From the NCBI GenBank assembly GCA_024451685.1, contig JAMXCW010000007.1, positions 29,120-84,070 on the forward strand: a DNA stretch of 54,951 nucleotides. Reading direction: 5' to 3'. Below are positions 39,486 to 40,176 of this stretch, piece after piece. Both the position numbers and the translations under genes were made by a program. The stretch is from Candidatus Bathyanammoxibius amoris (GTDB lineage: Bacteria; Planctomycetota; Brocadiia; Brocadiales; Bathyanammoxibiaceae). The notes under the pieces were generated by a model. The model saw nothing but the letters and a program-made list of their open reading frames with translations. It was not told where the DNA came from and made no database searches. Every line of letters starts with the position of its first letter. The stretch's first letter is position 1.

Positions 39486-39501
39486 CTACAACATGTTGTG
39501 T
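39486..39501 (+). promoter_or_regulatory. NrdR-box-like palindrome 1
   Basis: CTACAACATGTTGTGT matches the published NrdR box acaCwAtATaTwGtgt at 12 of 16 positions, including every strongly conserved position (C4, w5, A6, A8, T9, T11, w12, G13). The inner 12 bases are a perfect palindrome. Confidence 0.7.
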
Positions 39502-39516
39502 GTTCATCTAAAAAAT

Positions 39517-39532
39517 ATACAAAATATTGTGT
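39517..39532 (+). promoter_or_regulatory. NrdR-box-like palindrome 2
   Basis: ATACAAAATATTGTGT matches the NrdR consensus at 14 of 16 positions. A 15-bp linker separates it from box 1 (31 bp centre to centre, three helical turns), the spacing known for paired NrdR boxes. The next -35 box begins 7 bp later. A third core, CAATATATAG (39549-39558), lies inside the promoter spacer. Confidence 0.8.
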
Positions 39533-39539
39533 TTCACGC

Positions 39540-39567
39540 TTGACATTTCAATATATAGACATATAAT
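39540..39567 (+). promoter_or_regulatory. Consensus promoter of the glycyl-radical-domain gene
   Basis: Perfect TTGACA (39540-39545), 16 bp, perfect TATAAT (39562-39567). The predicted start is near 39574, leaving a leader of about 120 nt ending in AAAGGAGGT. This is the best promoter in the window and sits directly downstream of the NrdR boxes. The rest of the 403-bp gap from 39293 shows no ORF I trust. Confidence 0.85.
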
Positions 39568-39695
39568 ACTGCCCGTATACTACATGTGGCTTGGCAGGAA
39601 GTTAATCCGGTTTAAGTAAACACTCTTGTCCTTTTTTAAACGTTTAGATTGTTTTAATCCTAATACACTTTAGCGAAAGGAGGTAACTCGGAGAT

Positions 39696-40091
39696 ATGAC
39701 CCCAGCATTACTCGAACAAGAAGTGTGTAATACCTCTGTGTTGGAAGAAAGACTTCAGGCCTTTTGCGACGCGGTTAATTTCCATGATTATCTGGAGATT
39801 GACGGTGTAATTCATGCAGGTGAAGAGAAGCACGGTATCAAGTTTGAAGAAGACGTCCTTAAGGTTCTGAACCACAAGATGCATACGGCTTACTATATCT
39901 CTCTTAAGGCCATAATGAAGCAGAAACTTGGCGACGTAATTGAGGCCTTGGAAACGGGCATAAGGGAGAAGCTCTATAGCGTAACCAGAATCGTGGGTTA
40001 CTACAGCCGCGTGTCCAACTGGAACAAGTCAAAGCTCGGTGAGCTAAAAGACAGGCACAGAGGTGACTATTCAGTCAGGAAGGTCGCTTAG
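39696..40091 (+). CDS. Stand-alone ribonucleotide-reductase-type glycyl-radical domain
   Basis: A 131-residue protein. Its C-terminal third, T97-R98-I-V-G101-Y-Y then WNKSKLGELKDR, matches the end of class III (NrdD-type) ribonucleotide reductases, where the glycine of R-x-x-G-Y carries the radical and a WN/FNxxKxxExKxR tail follows. The first 95 residues are helical and have no recognised motif; there is no CxxC zinc site and no catalytic barrel. It could be a split NrdD C-terminus, a repair module analogous to YfiD for pyruvate formate-lyase, or a regulator. AAAGGAGGT precedes the ATG. Two NrdR-like boxes and a consensus promoter lie upstream and a terminator downstream, so it is a single-gene unit. 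Confidence 0.7.
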   Translation: MTPALLEQEVCNTSVLEERLQAFCDAVNFHDYLEIDGVIHAGEEKHGIKFEEDVLKVLNHKMHTAYYISLKAIMKQKLGDVIEALETGIREKLYSVTRIVGYYSRVSNWNKSKLGELKDRHRGDYSVRKVA

Positions 40092-40135: not shown

Positions 40136-40176
40136 GGGGCGAGCGAGATAAAATATCTTGCTCGCCCCTTGTTTTT
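40136..40176 (+). terminator. Rho-independent terminator
   Basis: GGGGCGAGCGAGATA pairs almost perfectly with TATCTTGCTCGCCCC around AAA (40136-40168), then TTGTTTTT. It ends the glycyl-radical-domain transcript. Confidence 0.93.

Follow-up and report, generated by a model that had tools for sequence, protein, structure and literature searches.

The closest described systems are the spare-part proteins of pyruvate formate-lyase, YfiD (GrcA) of E. coli and Y06I of phage T4 (PMC8683613). The 2021 study of YfiD reported that spare parts had been validated only for pyruvate formate-lyase and raised the question of other glycyl radical enzymes (PMC8683613). Canonical class III ribonucleotide reductases carry the radical glycine on the NrdD chain itself, after the zinc site (PMC11226230). 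Split reductases are already known in class II (PMC5704485, PMC4520616), for example NrdJa+b, whose C-terminal domain comes from a separate gene (PMC5704485), and phage nrdD genes are interrupted by introns, inteins and homing endonucleases (PMC3653736). No description of a class III reductase with its glycyl radical on a separate protein was found in open-access full text, subscription journals and preprints being outside the scope of the search.

With a probability of roughly 85%, the gene described here encodes such a separate glycyl-radical subunit of a class III reductase, obligatory where the radical site of NrdD has decayed and a spare part in Brocadiaceae. It shares with YfiD/GrcA and Y06I a product of about 14 kDa, a stand-alone gene, phage copies, a C-terminus that copies the glycyl-radical domain and an N-terminal half unrelated to the partner enzyme (PMC8683613). 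It differs from YfiD in that the proposed partner is NrdD instead of pyruvate formate-lyase, in matching no GrcA model and in possessing NrdR boxes; moreover, its N-terminal domain is predicted to be folded whereas that of YfiD is disordered, and the partner's own radical site has been lost in many lineages. ATP cones, barrel, zinc site, nearby nrdG and nrdR and the same radical motif are common to this system and the canonical class III NrdD system, but the radical glycine is here located on a second protein. The separate part of NrdJa+b, in contrast, is the cysteine-rich reducing domain of a B12 enzyme and not a radical carrier. Unlike the parts of interrupted phage nrdD genes, the separate protein has an extra domain of its own, sits elsewhere in the genome and is mostly encountered without any viral NrdD.

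The open reading frame for this protein of 131 amino acids lies at 39696..40091 on the forward strand of the window, that is, the whole stretch of 54,951 nucleotides analysed, and is supported by orthologues in more than 60 genomes and by a match to the NRDD family. thiD-like and LOG-like genes flank it on either side, and nrdD is far away. On the same strand were identified a sigma-70 type promoter, TTGACA-16-TATAAT (39540..39567; 12/12, by consensus match only), a ribosome-binding site, AAAGGAGGT (39676..39684; by reading of the sequence), and an intrinsic terminator with a stem-loop of 15 pairs, 9 of them G-C, followed by a T run (40136..40168). Promoter and terminator hits occur in numbers near the shuffled expectation and carry little weight on their own.

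Two NrdR boxes precede the promoter on the forward strand, CTACAACATGTTGTGT at 39486..39501 (12/16 to the consensus) and ATACAAAATATTGTGT at 39517..39532 (14/16), each with all six core positions kept. Their starts are 31 bp apart, leaving a spacer of 15 bp. NrdR binds box pairs with spacers of 14-17 bp (PMC12051234), and the spacing criterion for an NrdR regulon (14-17 bp, helical phase) is met upstream of the stand-alone gene. For the 300 bases upstream of the open reading frame, the summed pair score of 26 was reached by none of 500 dinucleotide shuffles (maximum 22), and nowhere else in the 55-kb window is it attained. The genome-wide statistics, a pattern search for the exact paired core, gave three places in the 2.07-Mb genome and none for the reversed control. 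A sequence-only reading of this DNA had described the open reading frame, promoter, ribosome-binding site and terminator as they were found here, and its paired palindromes, at 12/16 and 14/16 with cores kept and 31 bp apart, stood up to the shuffles.

A 31-bp box pair, diverged in sequence, recurs upstream of the stand-alone genes of the gene's own family (f1) and of families f3, f4 and f5, and is present in part of f41 and others, where 8/17 reach p 0.02 or less. Elsewhere in the gene's own genome, the pair of nrdJ is weaker and spaced at 32 bp, and nrdR/nrdD shows only a poor match. Two perfect NrdR-type pairs were observed at other loci of genome G000. One (L229, G000:C1:162884-162924) lies between lexA (reverse strand) and a 99-aa open reading frame of unknown family (forward strand), which hints at a possible influence of NrdR on the SOS regulator in this genome. 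The other (L231, G000:C9:18693-18733) lies between the gene for a ferredoxin:thioredoxin reductase beta chain (reverse strand), which could feed electrons to a reductase, and parB (forward strand).

Residues 93-121 of the protein correspond to positions 533-560 of the 562 in the Pfam model NRDD (profile search, E 1.8e-5; 24.1 bits, slightly under the gathering cut-off of 26.2). The same match is present in 44/44 members of the stand-alone family alignment, indicating that the similarity of the tail is not due to chance, and is the only consistent Pfam match across them. The glycyl-radical tail (residues 95-125, 39978..40070, forward strand), with the motif TRIVGYYSRVSNWNKSKLGELKDR and the radical glycine Gly101, is supported by this alignment, in which R98, V100, G101, Y102, S104, N108, W109, N110, S112, K113, E116, L117, D119, R120 and Y125 are invariant; a chance tail match was ruled out by this segment as well. 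An RVxGY-type radical motif followed by an NW-N..K helix satisfies the test for a class III glycyl-radical domain, and the tails are nearly identical to those of intact NrdDs of the same phylum. The test for an NrdD catalytic subunit, which asks for a 10-stranded barrel with active-site cysteines, is not satisfied: only the tail is present, the barrel being the product of a separate gene; similarity to NrdD starts right after the zinc site; and the zinc cysteines are missing from the protein, whose N-terminal domain is a different one. From its sequence, it is proposed as a subunit and not as an NrdD. No match to the GrcA or Gly_radical models of Pfam or NCBIfam was found at E values up to 10. 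The protein is proposed to work like GrcA/YfiD, with radical carriage and restoration of the partner inferred, yet is no member of that family by sequence.

The N-terminal domain (residues 13-90, 39732..39965, forward strand) is the proposed docking domain, its docking role being inferred. A helix, three strands and two helices are predicted by AlphaFold2 over these residues with pLDDT mostly 74-93, followed by a loop at 100-105 of low confidence and a helix at 106-121. This predicted fold would suit a docking domain bearing a mobile radical loop; docking itself remains an inference, no model of the complex being available. Foldseek of the model against the PDB gave no match at E 0.001, and a PDB sequence search with the protein gave one chance match only (E 0.2). 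The glycyl segment evolves more slowly than the N-terminus in seven of eight pairs, the exception, G010/G026, being unexplained. The family extends over several phyla and phages.

The genome that carries the gene possesses a single NrdD, whose length is 796-821 amino acids according to the start codon chosen; it has ATP cones, a barrel and a CxxC...CxxC zinc site. Its gene is closely preceded by nrdR and followed by an NrdG-like gene of the radical-SAM type. In this NrdD the radical motif has decayed to RSDNYES (VERSDNYESRLSNWN), as against RIVGYYS, with Asn in place of the radical glycine, so that the test for a radical glycine in the genome's own NrdD is not met. Its tail reads VERSDNYESRLSNWNASR, compared with TRIVGYYSRVNNWNKSK in intact relatives and TRIVGYYSRVSNWNKSK in the stand-alone protein. 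An assembly error was ruled out, since the decayed motif recurs in varied forms in dozens of independent assemblies. The AlphaFold2 model of this NrdD was poor, and the decayed tail could not be located on it. The genome also encodes a class II reductase and therefore does not, taken alone, force the split reading.

The comparison was extended to 197 relatives and to 392 genomes sampled evenly from the phylum Planctomycetota; the order is Candidatus Brocadiales, and the relatives include Scalindua arabica, Kuenenia hertensis, Brocadia and Jettenia. NrdDs without the glycine (Gly-less) occur together with the stand-alone protein in f1, in the Scalinduaceae-like f3 and in f4. The Brocadiaceae-like f5 combines an intact NrdD with the stand-alone protein, as do three Elusimicrobia-like genomes outside Planctomycetota. 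In f41, f47, f72 and f88, unrelated sequence replaces the NrdD tail after the zinc site and the stand-alone protein is present. Most other families have an intact NrdD and no stand-alone protein, with G065 and G382 as exceptions. Among the 70 NrdDs scored for both traits, the stand-alone protein accompanies 33/38 Gly-less and 13/32 intact NrdDs. The barrel tree requires six changes of glycine state, and the Gly-less plus stand-alone combination appears at three or more points on it. The independent-pairs test, which corrects for phylogeny, was not significant; with only two well-supported pairs it is underpowered, and the case is therefore built on conservation and on the only-reductase argument given below and not on counting. 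No stand-alone protein was detected in five Gly-less genomes: G006 (96% complete), G009 (77%), G126 (73%) and G134/G207. Two NrdDs of the Gly-less type keep the glycine in a decayed context (RLDGY in G004, RTDGY in G007).

Several further loci were recorded in this survey. G134 (L196) and G207 (L346) carry a distant NrdD type of family f57, in which TRIVGYF has become TRIADYF by a change of Gly to Asp. Two f3 assemblies, G034 (79% complete) and G038 (93%), have the stand-alone gene (L067, L227) and no NrdD barrel match, perhaps by an assembly gap. At L197 (G102:C42), a stop interrupts an nrdD that belongs to another subtype, and a 64-aa open reading frame with TRVMGYHRPVETFN comes directly after it.

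The rival explanation that survives best, though an unlikely one, is that the protein is a YfiD-like spare part only, repairing oxygen-cleaved NrdD and never serving as an obligatory subunit. The Brocadiaceae and the Elusimicrobia-like genomes, with an intact NrdD beside the stand-alone protein, are what it would predict. However, the NrdDs of f1, f3, f4, f41, f47, f72 and f88 have no working radical motif to repair while their barrels are strongly conserved, and ten genomes with a Gly-less tail and the stand-alone protein have no other reductase. In these ten (G011, G013, G028, G030, G106, G115, G165, G195, G269 and G334; 83-95% complete), no class I or II reductase barrel and no second NrdD barrel were found; G038, in which no NrdD was found, and G040, in which the tail was not read, had been excluded. 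Ribonucleotide reductase is a necessity for any free-living cell. With no other found, the Gly-less NrdD together with the stand-alone protein is most likely the ribonucleotide reductase of these ten genomes, as far as their gene content can tell.

In a second and considerably weaker rival, the Gly-less NrdD would be a dead or purely regulatory leftover, a class II reductase would be used, and the stand-alone protein would be an orphan. A class II type reductase is indeed present in the genome under study and in several other f1/f3 genomes. Against this, invariance of at least 95% among 51 intact NrdDs defines a set of 229 barrel columns, and a comparison with 29 Gly-less NrdDs finds 98.5% of this set preserved; cysteines 295, 498, 499 and 520 (numbered in the 821-aa frame), the catalytic ones among them, and the four zinc cysteines are kept in 29/29, as compared with 36% of tail columns and a glycine in 3/29. 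The pairwise dN/dS of the Gly-less barrels is about 0.05, with tail dN roughly 4-9 times barrel dN, and by this estimate the barrels are under strong purifying selection. NrdG is also kept, and in f1 and several genomes of f41 its gene comes immediately after the Gly-less nrdD; the ten genomes lack a class I/II barrel on which to fall back; and the stand-alone gene is retained with its NrdR box pair. Some decayed tails retain a W...EL helix, which might occupy the docking site and counts against the split model. The weakest rival, that the protein works with some other glycyl radical enzyme or takes part in an unrelated process, can draw on the distance of the gene from nrdD, among its thiD-like and LOG-like neighbours, and on an N-terminal domain without a known fold, but is hardly tenable beside a tail that all but duplicates those of same-phylum intact NrdDs, NRDD as the sole consistent Pfam match of 44 members, the NrdR box pair and the co-occurrence with Gly-less NrdD.

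The split model is thus preferred. The sequences themselves show that the radical site has decayed and the barrel is conserved, that Gly-less NrdD and the stand-alone protein co-occur and that the boxes are paired; docking, radical installation, catalysis in trans and repression by NrdR are inferred, without biochemical data. The N-terminal domain of the stand-alone protein would dock on NrdD, and NrdG would install the radical on Gly101, probably within the complex, as has been proposed for YfiD (PMC8683613). The flexible TRIVGYYS loop would then enter the NrdD barrel and, acting in trans, produce the thiyl radical of the active site. Under plentiful dATP, NrdR would be expected to repress the stand-alone gene and so to match production of the radical subunit to the level of dNTPs. 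Since the radical site of NrdD is lost in the gene's own family and several others, the subunit would be obligatory there, while in Brocadiaceae, with an intact NrdD, it would be an exchangeable spare part like YfiD for pyruvate formate-lyase. The two roles seem to be divided between lineages, some using it as a spare part and others as an obligate split subunit. Their states suggest a route in which the spare part came first, as in Brocadiaceae, the built-in site decayed and obligate splitting followed.

The sequence-only reading had taken the gene for a radical-repair or split-subunit module analogous to YfiD, with a reductase-like C-terminal tail and no barrel. The biochemistry of that proposal is still inferred. 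Support comes from the NRDD similarity (E 1.8e-5, 44/44 relatives) with the barrel absent, from a protein with Zn_ribbon_NrdR and ATP-cone domains beside nrdD, from an nrdD that has lost its radical site and from the boxes conserved upstream of orthologues. It had suggested as checks an NrdD profile search of the protein and searches for nrdR and for an nrdD lacking its C-terminus; none of the outcomes that would have refuted it, namely a chance tail similarity, no nrdR or boxes absent from orthologues, was found.

A scan of viral contigs identified 67 loci (L276-L342) on about 60 contigs, nearly all short stand-alone open reading frames, with no full-length NrdD among them. Sampled neighbours include genes for the major head protein, portal, head-maturation protease, terminase and primase. 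The NrdD barrel is absent from 42/45 viral records, many of which are fragments; the other three have a barrel open reading frame whose match ends before the radical motif, and a separate glycyl open reading frame. A significant NrdR box pair was found in 0/43 phage copies, and tblastn of the stand-alone protein in annotated phage records gave no match. In viral record G479 (L353, L339), the NrdD breaks off within the zinc site (..CNDCKKTSRGWNRDS); the other CxxC and the glycyl motif are found about 6 kb away in an open reading frame of 53 aa. On another viral contig, a radical-SAM gene that may encode an activase lies close to a stand-alone glycyl open reading frame (L283:4266-5150). Second stand-alone copies in Brocadiaceae (L141, L140, L142) adjoin phage terminase, portal or anti-repressor genes and are therefore probably prophage genes.

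A wider hypothesis, favoured with clearly less assurance than the split itself, is that in several lineages of Planctomycetota the class III reductase has become a radical enzyme of two obligatory chains, via a spare-part stage that Brocadiaceae still display, and that phages of such hosts carry a box-free radical subunit to switch on or sustain anaerobic DNA-precursor synthesis in the host. If the split model is true, this would be the first spare-part family for ribonucleotide reductase, an essential enzyme, with natural experiments available in the form of a spare part beside an intact partner, an obligate split and phage-borne copies. For work in vitro, it would also provide a class III reductase with a radical that could be made, exchanged or left out. 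A separate subunit would let cells and phages replace an oxygen-damaged part of ~15 kDa and not an enzyme of 800 residues. Anammox bacteria drive much of the nitrogen cycling at oxic-anoxic borders, and it is these bacteria that the finding concerns.
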